Origin: an uncultured Clostridia bacterium
Lineage (GTDB): Bacteria > Bacillota > Clostridia > Christensenellales > Pumilibacteraceae
Reading direction: 5' to 3'
DNA length: 57,848 bases
NCBI GenBank assembly: GCA_947175195.1
Contig: CAMWLQ010000008.1
Location: 1-57,848, forward strand
Below, piece by piece: positions 21,708-28,799 of the stretch. The notes under the pieces are model-generated. The model was not told the DNA's origin. It worked only from the letters and a program-made list of their open reading frames with translations, and searched no databases. The translations under genes were made by a program, and so were the position numbers. How positions within the stretch are numbered: position 1 is the first letter of the stretch; the number at the start of each line of letters is the position of its first letter.

Positions 21708-22514
21708 CTATACCAAGCTCGTTTTGTTTAGTATTAAGTTGCTGACCGCGCCGATACCTACGGCGAAGATCGCACCGCCGGCAAGCGTCATAATAACGTG
21801 TATGAAGGTTGCGTTGAGCGGCGTCATCATAGGTATCATCATAAACATAAATGCACCCACGCCAATCGCAAGCAAAATAGAAAGCCAAGTGCGCTGTTTG
21901 GCAACAACGGCGAATGCGAGGAATATCGAAACGAATACCGCAACAAGGAATATTTTCGAGAACAAACAAGCCACGATTCCGCCCGCATTAAAGCCTTCCA
22001 TTGTGAACGGAAGTCCTGCAATCCCGCCGCCTATCATAGCGCCTATGAAGAACATAAGCATCATAATTGCGCCGCCCACAAAGCACACAAGCGTTTTGGA
22101 AAAAACGTAATCAACCTTTTTGGAACGAACGGTAAACAGGTTCTTTGCATATCCGCTGCGAAAATCCTCGGCCGTGAATACACATACGAGCACGGCAATC
22201 ATAAAGTACATCAAATTCATATTGCACATTGTCGTAAGGTCCATAGACATAGCCGCATCAGCGCTGCCGGATGCCTCGCTGACCGAGCTTATAGACTGCC
22301 AAACGTTGGTGAACATTGCCGCCGCTTCCGCGCCGGTAGTCGGGTCGGGCTCTCCGCCCATCATACCCGTCATTACCAACATCAGTATGGGCATTGCAAG
22401 GCTCACGCCCAACAAAACGTAAATAAGCGGCATAGTGAACATTCTTTTAAAGTCCACCTTGAGCATGGTTTTCAGTCTTTTGGCAAAAGTAAACTTTTCA
22501 AACGTCGCATCCAT
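21708..22514 (-). CDS. ABC-2 type transporter permease (second pair)
   Basis: 268 residues with about six predicted transmembrane helices and a cytoplasmic N-terminus (KRLKTMLKVDFKRMFTMPLIYVLLG). It is clearly paralogous to the permease at 23429-24268: the N-terminal KRLKxMLxVDFxRxF stretch, an alanine-rich loop with MFTNxWQ, and DYKSGY-like or DFRSGYAKNLFT motifs recur. It should pair with the ATPase whose stop lies next to its start. Likely an exporter of peptide antibiotic or lipid type by family; no substrate is evident. Confidence 0.85.
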   Translation of the reverse strand: MDATFEKFTFAKRLKTMLKVDFKRMFTMPLIYVLLGVSLAMPILMLVMTGMMGGEPDPTTGAEAAAMFTNVWQSISSVSEASGSADAAMSMDLTTMCNMNLMYFMIAVLVCVFTAEDFRSGYAKNLFTVRSKKVDYVFSKTLVCFVGGAIMMLMFFIGAMIGGGIAGLPFTMEGFNAGGIVACLFSKIFLVAVFVSIFLAFAVVAKQRTWLSILLAIGVGAFMFMMIPMMTPLNATFIHVIMTLAGGAIFAVGIGAVSNLILNKTSLV

Positions 22515-23417
22515 TTATCTACCCTCCCTCATCAAGTCGATGTAGTATTCTTCCAAGCCGATCTTGCTTGTTTTGATTTCCGTAACGGCGATACGATGTT
22601 CGTTATACAAATAATCAACAACCTCTTCGGCTTTAACGGCGGCGTAAATGCGGATATAATCCTCCTCGTCCGTTTCGACGCGCGAGTATTTGCGTTCGAG
22701 CGCCGCCATTGCCGTAGTCATATCTTTGGCTTTTAGCGCAACATAGGTACGGCAATTTGCGTTAAGCTCTTCGGCGGTCATTTCGGCTATCATCTTGCCG
22801 CCGCGCACTATGCCGTAGTGTGTCGCTATTTTTTCGAGCTCGCCCAAGATATGAGACGAAATGACTACCGTGCAATTATAGCTCTTGGTAACGTCCGTCA
22901 GCACTTCACGCATTATTCTCATACCGTCGGCATCCAAGCCGTTTATAGGCTCGTCGAGAATAAGTAACGTAGGGTTACCGAGCAGCGCAAACGCAATACC
23001 GATACGCTGTTTCATACCGAGCGAGCAATTCTTGAATTTGTTGCTTGCCGAGCCTTCCATGTGCACAACTTTCAGCACTTTACGCACTTCTTCCTCGGCG
23101 TTTTCTATGCCCAAATTCGCCGCTTGCAGCATCATATTGTTCCACACGCTGTAATTGGGGAAACAACCCGGCGCCTCTATAAGCACGCCTACCTTCGCTC
23201 TGACGTCCGCGTCCTTGTAATCCTTGCCGAACAGCTTTACCTCGCCGCCGCTCGGAAGTATAAGCCCGCAAATGATTTTTTCGGTAGTTGATTTGCCGGA
23301 GCCGTTTTCGCCGATAAAGCCGTATATAGCGCCCTGCGGCACGGTCATGTTAAGTCCGTTTAAAGCTTGTTTTTGTCCGAAATTCTTTTTTAAATCTCTT
23401 ATTTCAATAGCGTTCAT
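22515..23417 (-). CDS. ABC transporter ATP-binding protein, BcrA-type (second pair)
   Basis: 300 residues. Walker A is GENGSGKST, the signature is CSLGMKQR in place of LSGGQ, and Walker B is LLILDEPINGLD, followed by the SSHILGELEKIA switch region. The SLGMKQR signature and a C-terminal accessory domain of about 90 residues are typical of bacitracin- and lantibiotic-immunity exporters (BcrA, SpaF). Paralogous to the ATPase at 24270-25172, differing mainly in the C-terminal domain. The stop directly abuts the permease ATG. Confidence 0.92.
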   Translation of the reverse strand: MNAIEIRDLKKNFGQKQALNGLNMTVPQGAIYGFIGENGSGKSTTEKIICGLILPSGGEVKLFGKDYKDADVRAKVGVLIEAPGCFPNYSVWNNMMLQAANLGIENAEEEVRKVLKVVHMEGSASNKFKNCSLGMKQRIGIAFALLGNPTLLILDEPINGLDADGMRIMREVLTDVTKSYNCTVVISSHILGELEKIATHYGIVRGGKMIAEMTAEELNANCRTYVALKAKDMTTAMAALERKYSRVETDEEDYIRIYAAVKAEEVVDYLYNEHRIAVTEIKTSKIGLEEYYIDLMREGR

Positions 23418-23428
23418 TGTTCACCTCA

Positions 23429-24268
23429 TTAATAACAATCGCGCTTGGATAATATCCACGAGCCTAATATGTTGTAAATCACCGCCCAAGCGACCGAAAC
23501 GGAAAGGCATACGATTACGCTGACAAAGTTTGCCGAAAGACAAGCATATACAGACGAACCGTAAAGGAATATATTGAGTGCGGGCGTGTTTCCTATAACC
23601 GCCGCCGCACCGATAATGGGAATACCCGTACCGAGCACAAAGCACAGAGCAATGGAAATGCCGAACTTCGAGCGGAAAATTATATTGATAAAGGTGTACA
23701 GGCTTGCCCAACCCAAGCTCATTATCATCTTGCCGAGTATGGCGCAAATCAGCGATCCCGCGTTGATTGTGAACGGCAATCCCGTAGCCGCACCCGCAAT
23801 CATACCGCCGATCATATAGGTAATACACATACACGCCATAGAGAATGCGCCGAGCAGCGATTTGCTCATCATATAGTCTTCCTTTTTGGCGTGCGTGGTA
23901 AATAACTGCTTTACGTATCCGCTTTTGTAATCGTGCCCGATAAAAATCGAAATCATTATTCCACCGAATATGAACACCATATTCATATTGGCATAGTCGC
24001 CCATGTCGTTTATAACGTATAACGGACTTTTTGCGGCAATGATTTGCCAAGCGTTTGTAAACATTGCCGTCGCTTCCGCAGCTTCTACTCCCTTTGCTCC
24101 GCCGCCCATTGCGCCCATAGATACGAGCGCCGGAATAATCGCGGCAATGCCAAGAAAAATGTAAAACAGCGGAGTATGGAACAACCTGTAAAAGTCTACG
24201 CCGAGCATGCCTTTCAACCTTTTGAAAAAGCTCGGTTGTTCGAATTTCAGTTCGCGAGTGTTTTCCAT
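23429..24268 (-). CDS. ABC-2 type transporter permease (first pair)
   Basis: 279 residues with about six membrane helices. It opens MENTRELKFEQPSFFKRL, then GMLGVDFYRLFHTPLFYIFLG. AAGGAGAGTGAC lies upstream of ATG 24268; an in-frame ATG at 24316 sits inside the upstream ATPase gene and is unlikely. Partner of the ATPase ending two bases away. Paralogous to the permease at 21708-22514, so the pair was duplicated in tandem. Confidence 0.85.
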   Translation of the reverse strand: MENTRELKFEQPSFFKRLKGMLGVDFYRLFHTPLFYIFLGIAAIIPALVSMGAMGGGAKGVEAAEATAMFTNAWQIIAAKSPLYVINDMGDYANMNMVFIFGGIMISIFIGHDYKSGYVKQLFTTHAKKEDYMMSKSLLGAFSMACMCITYMIGGMIAGAATGLPFTINAGSLICAILGKMIMSLGWASLYTFINIIFRSKFGISIALCFVLGTGIPIIGAAAVIGNTPALNIFLYGSSVYACLSANFVSVIVCLSVSVAWAVIYNILGSWILSKRDCY

Positions 24269-24269
24269 T

Positions 24270-25172
24270 TTAGTCACTCTCCTTTCTCGACATAAGTTCG
24301 ATATAGTATTCTTCAAGTCCGACCTTGTTCTTTTCGACTGCGCTTACAGGCTGTCCGCTTGCAAGCATGCACCGCACTATACTTTCGGTATCGTCCACGT
24401 CGTAAACTCTGATACACTCGTCCTCGTAGCGAACGTCCGCGAATTTCCTTTGCAATACGGTAAGCGCCGACGGAATGTGCGGTGTCTTGACCGACACAAA
24501 CACGCGAGAGCGCGCGTCCATTTCCTCTGCGGACATTTCTTGTATAAGCCTGCCCTGCCGAATAATGCCGTAGTGCGTGGCTATCTTTTCCAGCTCGCCC
24601 AGTATATGCGAGGATATTAGCACGGTGCAATTATAGTTTTGCGTAATGTCAACAAGTATTTCGCGCATAATACGCATACCGTCGGTGTCCAGTCCGTTGA
24701 TAGGCTCGTCCAAAATCAAGAGCGCGGGATTGCCGAGCAACGCCATAGCAATGCCTATGCGCTGTTTCATACCGAGCGAGCAGCTTTTGAATTTGATTTT
24801 TGCGTTGTCCTGCATACGCACGATTTTGAGCACACGCTTTATTTCCTCGTCACGGTTTTGTATACCGAGATTTAACGCCTGCATCATAAGGTTAGCCCAC
24901 ACGCTTGAGTTGGGAAAGCAGCCCGCATTCTCTATAAGCGCGCCCACTCGTGCGCGAACACCGGCGTCGGTATAATCCTTGCCGAAAAGCTTGATTTCGC
25001 CCTTATCGGGTACAAGATGTCCGCAAATAAGCTTTTCCGTAGTGGACTTGCCCGACCCGTTTTCGCCGATAAAGCCGTATATTGCGCCCTGCGGTACGGT
25101 CATGTTCAGGTTATCCACTGCGTACATTCCACGAAAGCTTTTGGATAGATTTCTTATTTCTATTGCGTTCAT
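24270..25172 (-). CDS. ABC transporter ATP-binding protein, BcrA-type (first pair)
   Basis: 300 residues with GENGSGKST, CSLGMKQR and LLILDEPINGLD as in its paralog. CAGGAGGACGTTA precedes the ATG. First gene of a four-gene transporter operon (ATPase-permease-ATPase-permease). Upstream are TATAAT at 25197-25202 and the 38-bp conserved element at 25218-25255, but no good -35 box, as expected for a promoter that depends on a bound regulator. By family it exports a membrane-active compound. Confidence 0.92.
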   Translation of the reverse strand: MNAIEIRNLSKSFRGMYAVDNLNMTVPQGAIYGFIGENGSGKSTTEKLICGHLVPDKGEIKLFGKDYTDAGVRARVGALIENAGCFPNSSVWANLMMQALNLGIQNRDEEIKRVLKIVRMQDNAKIKFKSCSLGMKQRIGIAMALLGNPALLILDEPINGLDTDGMRIMREILVDITQNYNCTVLISSHILGELEKIATHYGIIRQGRLIQEMSAEEMDARSRVFVSVKTPHIPSALTVLQRKFADVRYEDECIRVYDVDDTESIVRCMLASGQPVSAVEKNKVGLEEYYIELMSRKESD

Positions 25173-25217
25173 TAACGTCCTCCTGATTACAAGAATATTA
25201 TAAAACGTATTCGATAC

Positions 25218-25255
25218 AAACACCACAACATAAAAACCGAAAAGTGTCGGTTTCT
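25218..25255. promoter_or_regulatory. Conserved 38-bp element, copy 1 (transporter operon)
   Basis: 36 of 38 bases match 28128-28165. It contains the palindrome AAACCGA-AAAGTG-TCGGTTT (25234-25253). The only two differences from copy 2 are paired positions of the palindrome (G/A and C/T), so the symmetry is kept. It starts 15 bases upstream of the -10 box of the transporter operon. The palindrome also sits 12 bases past the cls stop and could fold as a weak terminator there. Confidence 0.8.
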
Positions 25256-25265
25256 ACTGCGTATT

Positions 25266-26828
25266 TTAAAACAACGGCGAAAACACCTTAGCCATAGCGC
25301 GTATAAACCGCTGAAACAAATTTTCTTTTAGCATACCAAGCTCGAACTGTATAGACTTTTCTTGAGTTTCGAGAAAATCATTTTTAATGTCCCCGATCGC
25401 CTTGTGCTTGTATATCCACACGCCGTTTTCGAAGTGGTGAACAAGCGAACGGTAATCCATATTGACCGTGCCGACCATAACCGTTTCGTCGTCGGAAATA
25501 TAAGTCTTGGCGTGAACAAAGCCGCTTTCGTATTCGTAAATCTTTACGCCCGCCGTCAAAAGCCTATTGTAATGGCTGCGCGTCATTAGGAACACAAGCT
25601 TTTTGTCGGGAATATGCGGCGTGATTATGCGCACGTCTATGCCGCGAATGGCGGCGTTTTCCAGCGCCTCGATCAGCTCGCTGTCTATAATCAAATACGG
25701 CGTTGTTATGTACACGTACCGCTTGGCTTGGTTGAGCATATTGAGAATGACCGACTTGGACACCTGCCTATCGTACACCGGCTTGGGTCCGTCGCCGAAC
25801 GGTATGCAATAGCCGTCCTGCTCCACGCATTCGTTACCGTAGTAATCGGCAAAATTATCGTCGAATTTTTTGTCGTTCAAACCGTAATCGATAAGGAACA
25901 ACCGCGTAAGCTCGTTTACCGCCTCGCCCTGCAAGCGCAAACCAACGTCCTTCCAGTGCCCGAATTTTTGTATGCGGTTTATGTATTCGTCGGCAATGTT
26001 TACGCCACCCGTGTACCCGACTTTTCCGTCAATAACGGTAATCTTTCTGTGGCTGCGGTTATTAAACTCGTTGTTGGCTTGGCCGCGCAAGCGCGAAAAC
26101 GGCACCGCTTTTATTCCCATCTTTCTAAGCTGTTTATAGTAGCTCCCGGGAAGTGTCATCATACAGCCTATATCGTCGTACACAACGCGCACCTCGACGC
26201 CGCTTGCCGCCTTTTGTTTGAGTATCTCCAAAATCGTGTTCCAAAACAAGCCACCCTCGATTATGAAGTATTCCATAAAAATAAACTTTTCGGCTTGTTT
26301 CAAGTCCTCGACCATAGCGGCAAACATATGCTCGCCAAGCGGATAATAACTTATATCCGTGTTGCCGTAAACGTGCGAGTCCGACAGCTTGTTAAGCATT
26401 ACCGCTTGCGATCCGATTATCGCGTCGCCCTCGCATATTTGCGACAGCTCCGCGCCATCGTCCTTTGCCACGCGTTGTGTGGTCATTCGTTGTAGTCTTT
26501 TTACCTGCTTTTTGCTCAGCTTGCGAGAATAGAACATAAAGTAAAGCATAAACCCGACAATAGGAATAAGCATGACGAAAAACAGCCACGGCAGCTTGTA
26601 GTCGGGATTGTCCTTGCGGTTGATAATCGCTATCGCAACGACAAACTGTGTTATAACTACAACAAAGTAAAAATACGGGATGAAAATAGTCAATGCCGAT
26701 ACAACCGCAATTACCGCCAGCGTTTCAATCACCACAAGGAAGATTGCAACGATATAGCGGAACGGGATATATGTTATCTCCCGTTCCACCTGCTTGTTGT
26801 GTTCTTGTATTACGATTTTCTTTTTCAT
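25266..26828 (-). CDS. cls: Cardiolipin synthase (phospholipase D family)
   Basis: 520 residues. Two N-terminal membrane helices (about 23-72) are followed by two PLD domains with HKD motifs: HRKITVIDGKVGYTGG and HAKTYISDDETVMVGTVN. It joins two phosphatidylglycerol molecules into cardiolipin. AGGAAAAACA precedes the ATG, 8 bases after the acetyltransferase gene stop, so it belongs to the same operon as the repeat protein. Cardiolipin changes surface charge and curvature, which would fit with neighbouring antibiotic-type exporters (inference). Confidence 0.92.
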   Translation of the reverse strand: MKKKIVIQEHNKQVEREITYIPFRYIVAIFLVVIETLAVIAVVSALTIFIPYFYFVVVITQFVVAIAIINRKDNPDYKLPWLFFVMLIPIVGFMLYFMFYSRKLSKKQVKRLQRMTTQRVAKDDGAELSQICEGDAIIGSQAVMLNKLSDSHVYGNTDISYYPLGEHMFAAMVEDLKQAEKFIFMEYFIIEGGLFWNTILEILKQKAASGVEVRVVYDDIGCMMTLPGSYYKQLRKMGIKAVPFSRLRGQANNEFNNRSHRKITVIDGKVGYTGGVNIADEYINRIQKFGHWKDVGLRLQGEAVNELTRLFLIDYGLNDKKFDDNFADYYGNECVEQDGYCIPFGDGPKPVYDRQVSKSVILNMLNQAKRYVYITTPYLIIDSELIEALENAAIRGIDVRIITPHIPDKKLVFLMTRSHYNRLLTAGVKIYEYESGFVHAKTYISDDETVMVGTVNMDYRSLVHHFENGVWIYKHKAIGDIKNDFLETQEKSIQFELGMLKENLFQRFIRAMAKVFSPLF

Positions 26829-26836
26829 TGTTTTTC

Positions 26837-27394
26837 CTATTTATGCGGAATTTGCTTTACTACCCTGCAAGGGTTTCCTACCGCCACCGTGTACGGCGGG
26901 ATATCTTTGGTGACAACCGAGCCTGCACCGATTACTGCGCCCTCGCCTATCGTTACGCCCGGCAATACGGTTACGTTAGCGCCCAGCCAAGTTTTGTCGC
27001 CGATTGTTATGGGCTTGTCGCAAAACCCGCCCTTTAGCCTCTCGTCCGCGTCAAGCGTATGATTGGTGCAAATAATACTGCAATTAGGACCGATAAGTGC
27101 GCAGTGCCCTACAGTGATAATGTTGGAATCGAGGAATGTGCAGTTATAGTTGATCATTGCCGTGCCTTTAAAGTGAATATTCTTTCCGAACACGCACTTA
27201 AATCCGTCCTCGATAAAAACGTACTGATTATATTCGGTTACAAGCTCCTTGATTATTTCCGTGCGCTTAGGGTCGCTCGGGCGCGCGTGATTAAAGTCGT
27301 ACAACAGTTCCTTCACTTTCATTTGAAAGGTCATAACCTCTCCGTCCCTGCTATTGAACTGTTCGCCCGACAATGCTTTTTCAAGTTCAGTCAT
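26837..27394 (-). CDS. Hexapeptide-repeat sugar O-acetyltransferase
   Basis: 185 residues of the maltose/galactoside acetyltransferase family (LacA, Maa, NodL). An N-terminal helical cap (RPSDPKRTEIIKELV) is followed by a left-handed beta helix with hexapeptide repeats such as ITIGDKTWLGANVTVLPGV, then the closing GAGSVVTKDIPP and VAVGNPCRVVK. The catalytic histidine is likely in ICTNHTLDADER. It transfers acetyl from acetyl-CoA to a sugar hydroxyl; the acceptor is unknown. The start overlaps the repeat-protein gene by 8 bases. Confidence 0.9.
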   Translation of the reverse strand: MTELEKALSGEQFNSRDGEVMTFQMKVKELLYDFNHARPSDPKRTEIIKELVTEYNQYVFIEDGFKCVFGKNIHFKGTAMINYNCTFLDSNIITVGHCALIGPNCSIICTNHTLDADERLKGGFCDKPITIGDKTWLGANVTVLPGVTIGEGAVIGAGSVVTKDIPPYTVAVGNPCRVVKQIPHK

Positions 27395-28070
27395 TGCTTT
27401 CCTCGCCCGTTACTTCGACGGCATACTTACCGTCAAGTCCCTTTGCCCTTAAAAACTCGTTAAACTCGCGGGCAAGATCGTCGGCGGAATATTCCGATGC
27501 GTCTTGCAGCTTTGCGCCGTTCGTCGCGCCGTAGCCTGCCGTCGTCCTGTATACGCTTGCTTTCGCGTTAGCTATATTGGCTCTCGTTTGTGCCGAAATT
27601 CCGTCAATCGCCGCAGCCGTTTTACGCGGCGCTTCTTTTATGCCCTTTTTGAGATTTGCTATAATGAGCTGCACTTTTGCCTTAAAGCCCTTGGTGTGCA
27701 AAAACTCGGTAAATTCGGGATTTGCCTCCGCCGACTGACGCTTGACTTCCTCAAGCTGTGCTTTGTCCGTTTCTTTTTGTTTGCGCGCGCTTTCCGCCAT
27801 ATTGGCAAATGCTACTTTAAACTTTGCCGCAATGCCTTTTGTTTGACAAAATTCCTCAAACTGATTGCTGATTTCCTCGTAGTGGTGGTCGTTGTACTGT
27901 TCGTTCATGGTTTTTGTTCTCCTTATTTGAATGATTTTTTTATTTCTTTCGGCGTGGGAAAGCAATATCTTAAATTGTTCCTTGCCCGTTGCCGATAAAA
28001 ATTGTCGAAAGTCCTTTTCCGTAATAACAACGGATTCGTTCGGGTCTTGAATGTTGTCTGTATTCTCCAT
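27387..28070 (-). CDS. Uncharacterised protein with four FxxFLxxKG repeats
   Basis: I do not recognise this 227-residue protein. It has four degenerate repeats starting near residues 21, 71, 120 and 203: FRQFLSATGKEQFKIL, FEEFCQTKGIAAKFKVAF, FTEFLHTKGFKAKVQLII and FNEFLRAKGLDGKYAV. Repeats two and three are each followed by a charged helical stretch. There is no signal peptide or membrane helix, so it is probably cytoplasmic. The start at 28070 has GAGG 6 bases upstream and includes the first repeat; an internal ATG at 27908 also has AGGAG and might give a shorter form. It heads the operon with the acetyltransferase and cls, under the conserved 38-bp element. Confidence 0.7.
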   Translation of the reverse strand: MENTDNIQDPNESVVITEKDFRQFLSATGKEQFKILLSHAERNKKIIQIRRTKTMNEQYNDHHYEEISNQFEEFCQTKGIAAKFKVAFANMAESARKQKETDKAQLEEVKRQSAEANPEFTEFLHTKGFKAKVQLIIANLKKGIKEAPRKTAAAIDGISAQTRANIANAKASVYRTTAGYGATNGAKLQDASEYSADDLAREFNEFLRAKGLDGKYAVEVTGEESND

Positions 28071-28127
28071 AATGTACCTCATAGGCTGTTGCCTGATTGC
28101 ATTTATAGTTTAGCTGTGAATTTACAA

Positions 28128-28165
28128 AAACACCACAACATAAAAACCAAAAAGTGTTGGTTTCT
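28128..28165. promoter_or_regulatory. Conserved 38-bp element, copy 2 (between tetR and the repeat-protein operon)
   Basis: Matches 25218-25255 at 36 of 38 bases. The palindrome AAACCAA-AAAGTG-TTGGTTT (28144-28163) ends 4 bases before the -35 box of tetR. On the other strand the block lies 20 bases upstream of TATAAA (28102-28107) for the repeat-protein operon. It is well placed to control both divergent transcripts and is the likely binding site of the TetR protein at 28203. Confidence 0.8.
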
Positions 28166-28167
28166 GA

Positions 28168-28196
28168 TTGATTTTTTAAAAGCATTTTGGTACAAT
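28168..28196 (+). promoter_or_regulatory. Promoter of tetR (leaderless)
   Basis: TTGATT (28168-28173), 17-base spacer, TACAAT (28191-28196). The ATG starts after 6 more bases, so the transcript should begin at or next to the start codon. Confidence 0.75.
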
Positions 28197-28202
28197 CGTA
28201 AT

Positions 28203-28799
28203 ATGAACAGATCGGAATCGAAATTTGAAAATACAGCAAGCAAAATGCGGAGCGCATTCGTTACGTTGTTGGAAACAAAAGAGTTTGCCGACATCAGCAT
28301 TATGGATATTTGTAAATCCGCGGGCGTAAACCGTTCCACATTTTACGCGCATTACGACAACACATACGACTTGTTAAAAGAGTCGCGCGATAGCATAGTA
28401 GACAGTTTTTTCAAAGAATGTAATTTCGAAGACCCAGTGGATCTATCGGATATGCGCAATTTAAGCAAGGAAGACTTAAATTTGATTTCGCCCAAATACC
28501 TGCTGCCATACCTGCGATATATACAAAAGCACAAACGTCTTTTTAGGATTTACGCCGACAATGCTCACGCATTCGAAGTGAGCAAAATGGACGATTTAAT
28601 GGTAGAAAATATTTTTGTCCCCATATTGTCAAAATACGGAGTAACGGATAAAAAACTCATTTACTATATGCAAAAGTTTTTCCTAAAAGGAATCGACGCG
28701 ATTATCAATGAGTGGGTACGCAACGATTGCGAGGACGACATTTTGTTCATATGCGAGATTATAATTTTTTGCGTGCGACCTACAGACCATAAAGCATAA
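28203..28799 (+). CDS. TetR family transcriptional regulator
   Basis: 198 residues. The N-terminal helix-turn-helix reads ISIMDICKSAGVNRSTFYAHY (about 33-53), with the FYxHY end typical of TetR. A helical ligand-binding domain follows with no family-specific motif I can name. No Shine-Dalgarno sequence precedes the ATG and the promoter ends 6 bases upstream, so the mRNA is probably leaderless. It is divergent from the repeat-protein/acetyltransferase/cls operon and its promoter abuts the conserved palindrome. It is likely a local regulator of that operon and of the ABC transporters, and autoregulated (inference). A strong terminator follows. Confidence 0.88.
   Translation: MNRSESKFENTASKMRSAFVTLLETKEFADISIMDICKSAGVNRSTFYAHYDNTYDLLKESRDSIVDSFFKECNFEDPVDLSDMRNLSKEDLNLISPKYLLPYLRYIQKHKRLFRIYADNAHAFEVSKMDDLMVENIFVPILSKYGVTDKKLIYYMQKFFLKGIDAIINEWVRNDCEDDILFICEIIIFCVRPTDHKA

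Follow-up and report, generated by a model that had tools for sequence, protein, structure and literature searches.

A dyad beside a DhaS-like TetR gene as a candidate activator site for two operons with envelope-related genes in an uncultured Clostridia bacterium

The window studied here, that is the whole analysed stretch of 57,848 nucleotides, comes from an uncultured Clostridia bacterium of the Pumilibacteraceae (contig CAMWLQ010000008.1). It holds a gene for a TetR-family regulator (tetR), the neighbouring rep-mac-cls operon and an operon for two ATP-binding cassette (ABC) exporters (Table 1). An earlier note on this DNA had claimed that a 38-bp element occurring twice links tetR to both operons. 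Direct comparison confirmed the match, positions 25218-25255 and 28128-28165 being identical at 36 of 38 bases with mismatches at 25239 (G/A) and 25248 (C/T). The placement was also as described, with copy 1 upstream of the ABC operon and copy 2 between tetR and the rep operon, where the tetR -35 box begins 4 nt past the 34-bp core of the element. When the 34-bp core was searched in the organism's own genome (1,784,007 bases in 32 contigs) with up to three mismatches, only these two copies were found, both in the window; no further copy appeared with a looser pattern, and the reversed-pattern control gave none under the settings of the first search. With two copies in 1.78 Mb the element is therefore not a dispersed repeat (REP- or MITE-like) with many copies at unrelated loci, the outcome that the earlier note had named as speaking against its claim.

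The note had also proposed to search for the motif near the same genes in related genomes. In this search the site tracked the TetR and headed the same operons, and both its co-occurrence and its position bear out the tie between tetR and the two operons. TetR proteins of at least 50% identity to that of the window were found in 12 of 101 genomes, the site in 11 of 201 genomes and a looser pattern in 11 of 74 genomes of the family. The TetR search and the looser pattern had 61 genomes of the family in common; of these, nine of the 11 with an orthologous TetR carried the site, compared with none of the 50 without it (p = 3 × 10−9). In G014, one of the exceptions, the site next to tetR has diverged; in the other, G036, only 92 bases of the contig precede tetR, so that no site can be seen. 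Like the window, 16 of 24 stretches contain a site scoring at least 14; the other eight are L050-L053 and L072 (TetRs of 35-39% and 43% identity), L073 (44%), L065 at a contig end and L068 with a diverged site. At a score of at least 12, one or more sites were found in 40 of the 43 named loci (L092-L133 and L145) whose TetRs show 49-81% identity. The three site-less loci are L123 and L126, both at contig ends, the latter on a contig that begins inside an apparently cut site, and L131, which has a dyad with one mismatch. Where the gene order is rearranged (e.g., L061, L071 and L105), the site still heads the rearranged operon.

At a score of at least 25, the scan of 101 loci gave 67 distinct 34-mers in 77 distinct contexts. 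Over the 77 contexts, columns 7, 9-11, 15, 27, 28, 33 and 34 of the 34-mer are invariant. The earlier note had described a palindrome with one compensated base pair and had taken this covariation as the mark of a bound site. That palindrome is found in both window copies, but it is centred wrongly, at 24.5 of the 34-mer, and distant sites do not keep its left arm. Covariation did not hold up: in the 67 distinct sites the key pair, columns 20 and 29, is mixed (G-T 27, G-C 25, A-T 6, A-C 4, C-C 3, other 2), non-Watson-Crick in 36, and uncorrelated (Fisher p = 0.74 for the G/A by C/T cells). With the pair uncorrelated and the left arm lost, we ruled out this palindrome as the conserved core; as a hairpin behind cls it may still have a local role. 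What the more distant TetR sites preserve is CRACA and TGTYG, and judged by this conservation the deeply conserved core is the dyad CRACA-N14-TGTYG. We also considered the outer boxes ACACC and GGTTT as symmetric partners but abandoned this after the distant sites had fixed the dyad at CRACA/TGTYG.

The spacing of the dyad is equally well defined. In 97 loci, CRACA-N14-TGTYG had 108 distinct matches, compared with 1-11 for each other spacer between 6 and 23. In distant loci, whose TetRs are 38-44% identical to that of the window, the N14 dyad gave 25 distinct matches in 26 of 32 loci within 2 kb of tetR, and the other spacers 0-2 each; four of these loci (L157, L160, L166 and L169) are near-copies. 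This test is partly in-sample, as five loci (L150, L159, L162, L164 and L151, the last being the contig of L073) had been glimpsed during the definition of the dyad, and without them the N14 dyad was found in 22 of 27. The two half-sites behave differently (p = 2 × 10−7): the promoter-proximal one hardly varies, with TGTTG in 70 of the 77 distinct sites, and the distal one reads TGTTG in 44 and TGTCG in 33. Five of 85 rows, consisting of reverse readings with a poor -10, were excluded from this count. In several of the loci L131-L137, the operon -10 is also followed at a short distance by a compact dyad of the type CAACAAATGTNG, with the same half-sites separated by N2 and not N14; this type was not seen in the window operons.

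The earlier note had further claimed that both operon promoters have a -10 but a poor -35. Both features were recovered, and the spacing proved to be fixed as well. With a -10 defined as a hexamer on the operon strand with at least four of six matches, A at position 2 and T at position 6, a -10 begins exactly 17 nt past the 34-mer, equivalent to 23 nt past the dyad, in 72 of 77 sites, and in 53 of the 77 this offset is the first best-scoring -10 place. Among 203 oriented dyads, -10s with at least five matches lie at offset 23 in 73 cases, every other offset being used at most 14 times. The distant loci agree, with a -10 of at least four matches at 23 nt in 26 of 32 and any other offset at most six times. 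For the 73 promoters the best TTGACA match at 16-18 nt was 2/6 in 49, 3/6 in 19 and 4/6 in five. No site promoter reached a -35 match of five or six, compared with 60 of 519 control -10s upstream of other genes (Mann-Whitney p = 3 × 10−5; shuffles 1.7%). The operon -10s themselves are of the ordinary sigma-A type. The arrangement thus corresponds to that of a class-II-type activator, with a site at or over the -35 region, a fixed distance to the -10 and a poor -35.

The promoter of tetR, on the other side of copy 2, looks self-sufficient. The start codon of the gene lies only 6 nt past the -10, with no ribosome site in between (28191-28205), so that the message looks leaderless. The tetR starts of L054, L056 and L057 resemble that of the window, whereas a leader containing GGCGG precedes those of L058 and L059.

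The TetR of the window passes the Pfam model TetR_N (26.7 bits, cut-off 24). It does not pass TetR_C_8 (PF14278; 19.7 bits compared with 26.1), a model that a distant relative in L149 does pass with 44.2 bits. Its best NCBIfam model is that of the activator DhaS (TIGR02366), and its PDB profile matches are headed by the DhaS-like 4mk6 of Listeria and include DhaS itself (2iu5). In the fold search with an AlphaFold2 model (predicted local distance difference test, pLDDT, 87), the best E-values were obtained for 4mk6, 3kkc and 2iu5. In addition, residue 49 of the recognition helix varies with the flank of the proximal half-site. Alanine goes with TGG in 45 of 51 rows (otherwise TTG in three, TGC, GGG and TGT) and leucine with TTC in 22 of 26 (otherwise CGT in two, AGT and TTT), while aspartate was found in two rows (GAT and GGT) and phenylalanine in one (TAC).

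Conservation, co-occurrence, dyad, spacing and the lack of a -35 can be read directly from the sequences; binding by the TetR, the direction of control and the signal are what we infer. The neighbouring TetR very probably binds the element, a claim well supported by the comparison of genomes, and we consider it rather probable that this DhaS-like TetR acts as a dimer on the dyad as a class-II-type activator of both operons. With the last base of the -10 taken as -7, a dimer on CRACA-N14-TGTYG would cover each operon promoter from about -59 to about -36, centred at about -47.5. These promoters have a good -10 and no proper -35. The bound TetR, its proximal half-site adjoining the -35 slot, would probably contact region 4 of sigma or the C-terminal domains of alpha and thereby recruit RNA polymerase. 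The rep-mac-cls and double ABC-exporter operons would then be turned on together by a ligand, probably an envelope-related one, and tetR would be transcribed from its own ordinary promoter just outside the site. Because the dyad is centred near -47.5, the spacing is exact over deep divergence and the regulator is DhaS-like, activation is the better reading. The earlier note had already suggested that the regulator may activate as well as repress, and the good -10, the missing -35 and the fixed spacing support possible activation.

A number of observations weigh against this activator reading. The poor -35 match is not independent evidence, because the operator itself fixes that slot. TG precedes the -10 in 19 of 85 rows. 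In 70 of 77 distinct sites, moreover, the proximal half-site TGTTG places a TTG 20 nt before the -10. The N14 dyad is absent from six of the 32 distant loci (L148, L155, L156, L164, L167 and L168), the module sites of L057 and L063 are one base short (N13), and L134 and L135, with TetRs of 48-50% identity, have no clear dyad at the N14 spacing. The DhaS match is far under the family cut-off (39.1 compared with 129 bits) and the 2iu5 profile match spans the helix-turn-helix only. In fold, FadR, EthR and MtrR, several of them repressors, are nearly as close to the model, FadR with higher TM-scores. Lastly, in a tree of 72 rows the link between residue 49 and the flank is essentially one deep split between alanine and leucine, and therefore supports but does not prove the TetR as the reader of the flank. 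The TTG 20 nt from the -10 had also prompted us to consider a MerR-like action on a long spacer, which we demoted to a remark, as the spacer does not contain the dyad, which is located upstream of it.

The main rival is that the same TetR acts on the same dyad as a classical repressor, which covers the -35 region of both operons and is released upon ligand binding. TetR proteins are mostly repressors, according to the available text of one paper (PMC3511530), and several repressors are among the close folds of the model. The site does overlap the -35 slot of both operons, where the TTG mentioned above makes a weak -35 possible. However, a pure repressor needs neither the exact 23-nt distance, kept down to 38% TetR identity, nor the loss of the -35 seen in the comparison with the control promoters, and the nearest named TetR model is that of an activator. 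We therefore regard repression as possible but somewhat unlikely. The element might instead be read by something other than the TetR, for instance an alternative sigma factor or a regulator unrelated to it, with tetR as a mere neighbour or target, and the directionality of the element and its inclusion of the -35 slot would suit such a reader. This is improbable, as the site follows the TetR orthologue across the 61 genomes, the dyad recurs beside distant TetRs with differing other neighbours, the flank varies with the recognition-helix residue and the -10s are ordinary sigma-A ones. Least probable is an RNA hairpin that serves as terminator or attenuator. In its favour, copy 1 read on the cls strand (25218-25262) folds at -15.3 kcal/mol (z -3.6 relative to shuffles). 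Against it, copy 2 has no folding advantage over shuffled sequences (z -0.75 and -0.40), and the element lies outside the phased transcript because it is upstream of its -10. In addition, the pair of the covariation claim is mostly not Watson-Crick, neither copy came up in the terminator scan, and Rfam gave a tRNA at 4-88 as its sole match and none for the element. The hairpin of copy 1 may nevertheless double as a terminator of cls.

In a broader reading, the TetR of the window would belong to a Bacillota subfamily of class-II-type activators with one rigid grammar, CRACA-N14-TGTYG-N23-TATAAT, in which the operator replaces the -35. The range of this subfamily would include Clostridia, Oscillospiraceae, Butyrivibrio, metagenome-assembled Bacilli and perhaps Lactobacillaceae, and we find the case for it evenly balanced.

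Behind the 77 distinct sites, abcA1 is the first gene 32 times and rep 29 times; one site is followed by another ABC ATPase gene and 15 by other genes. Conversely, the core dyad was found upstream of 51 of 64 rep or abcA1 matches in 48 loci. Upon reading, the 13 matches without it were two cross-matches to abcA2, eight genes presumed internal to an operon, as each stands behind a same-strand gene (747 bases away in L093), L115 and L128 with diverged sites that were still found by the scan, and L131. The product of rep matches no Pfam family and is a repeat protein without known relatives among families; its predicted structure is all-helical with a mean pLDDT of 61 and a predicted template modelling score of 0.21, and it contains recurring xFxxFLxxKG-like segments. 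By eye it resembles a 108-residue protein beside a distant tetR (L144:10610-10936). The gene content, with two lantibiotic-type ABC exporters, a cardiolipin synthase, an acetyltransferase and a helical protein, suggests a response to membrane- or wall-active compounds, i.e., envelope stress. The envelope-stress or drug-response role put forward in the earlier note fits this content, from which we infer it. Its label BcrA-type for the exporters is fair only in the sense of lantibiotic-protection-like, with a score below the cut-off of that family (Table 1).

Table 1. Features of the tetR locus, with positions in the window.
Feature	Position	Strand	Basis or remark
Element copy 1 (34-bp core)	25220..25253	+	between cls and abcA1; upstream of ABC operon; 12 nt past cls stop codon
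Element copy 2 (34-bp core)	28130..28163	+	between rep and tetR
Dyad of copy 1	25226..25249		CAACA 25226-25230, N14, TGTCG 25245-25249; conservation across sites
Dyad of copy 2	28136..28159		CAACA 28136-28140, N14, TGTTG 28155-28159; conservation across sites
-10 of ABC operon, TATAAT	25197..25202	-	17 nt from copy 1; -35 slot TGGTGT 25220-25225
-10 of rep-mac-cls operon, TAAACT	28107..28112	-	17 nt from copy 2; -35 slot TGGTGT 28130-28135
tetR promoter, TTGATT (28168-28173)-N17-TACAAT (28191-28196)	28168..28196	+	starts 4 nt past copy 2 core
tetR, DhaS-like TetR-family regulator, proposed binder of both sites	28203..28799	+	profile, fold, co-occurrence
rep, helical repeat protein, no known family	27387..28070	-	profile searches, structure model
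mac, hexapeptide sugar O-acetyltransferase	26837..27394	-	profile searches
cls, cardiolipin synthase	25266..26828	-	TIGR04265 344.2 bits, above cut-off 290
abcA1, ABC ATPase, lantibiotic-protection-like	24270..25172	-	TIGR03740 203.5 bits, below cut-off 309.75
perm1, ABC-2 permease	23429..24271	-	Pfam 22.5, below cut-off 27
abcA2, second ABC ATPase	22515..23417	-	profile search
perm2, second ABC-2 permease	21708..22514	-	profile search

Further genes were seen behind copies of the site. A condensation-domain protein of about 400 residues follows its own copy in L059, L093, L095, L098, L102, L109 and L121 (Pfam was applied to that of L093, and the L102 gene is cut off), and it may be counted as a candidate added member of the regulon. 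Several small hydrophobic-looking proteins are likewise encoded behind site copies. Genome G103 has a third site (L070:10865-10898), flanked by another ABC ATPase gene and by a divergently oriented gene whose promoter reads TTGATT-N17-TACAAT. In many of the loci L139-L171 (e.g., L149:9557-9907) the site is followed by a gene for a protein of about 117 residues, starting with MNTDKIYAE and containing hydrophobic segments, then by tetR and often by a gene for a further hydrophobic protein. The MNTDKIYAE protein had no match in Pfam or the curated NCBIfam models.

To our knowledge, activators make up only a small part of the very large TetR family and have seldom had their operators predicted across genera. 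Here the sequence alone yields a predicted operator, its promoter register, a candidate specificity residue and a predicted envelope-gene regulon in uncultured gut bacteria. As the grammar is kept down to 38% TetR identity, the prediction is testable for dozens of genomes at once. If the broader reading holds, the nearly fixed proximal and variable distal half-sites would make the direction of the operator readable from the sequence alone.

Among known systems, our literature search, which judged papers by title and the start of the abstract and left most subscription journals outside its range, found none among the papers listed that appears to describe this operator, and a search on TetR_C_8 also found none. 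The palindrome given for TetR_0692 in the accessible part of its description (PMC8457756) differs from the present dyad. The lantibiotic-protection ABC transporters (TIGR03740), the best NCBIfam model of abcA1, resemble the window system in pairing ATPases with ABC-2-type permeases; abcA1 is under the family cut-off and here stands beside a TetR gene. The closest named relative of the regulator is DhaS of Lactococcus lactis, the TetR-family activator of dhaKLM, whose model is its best in NCBIfam and whose structure is among its best PDB profile and fold matches. The operator of DhaS is GGACACAT-N6-ATTTGTCC, i.e., RACA/TGTY half-sites with a gap of 12 nt, whereas the gap is 14 nt here. DhaS is also associated with dihydroxyacetone kinase genes, in contrast to the envelope genes of the window; no dihydroxyacetone kinase gene was found among the annotated target genes, and the window TetR falls outside TIGR02366. 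A second comparable regulator is the TetR protein SPV_0647 of Streptococcus pneumoniae, probably identical with the protein discussed as FasR in the same study; it controls membrane balance and has a DhaS-like fold according to its authors, who report that they found no motif (PMC12647141). The window TetR would share with FasR both this fold and the link to the membrane, and the dyad grammar may help with DhaS-like membrane regulators such as the pneumococcal one.

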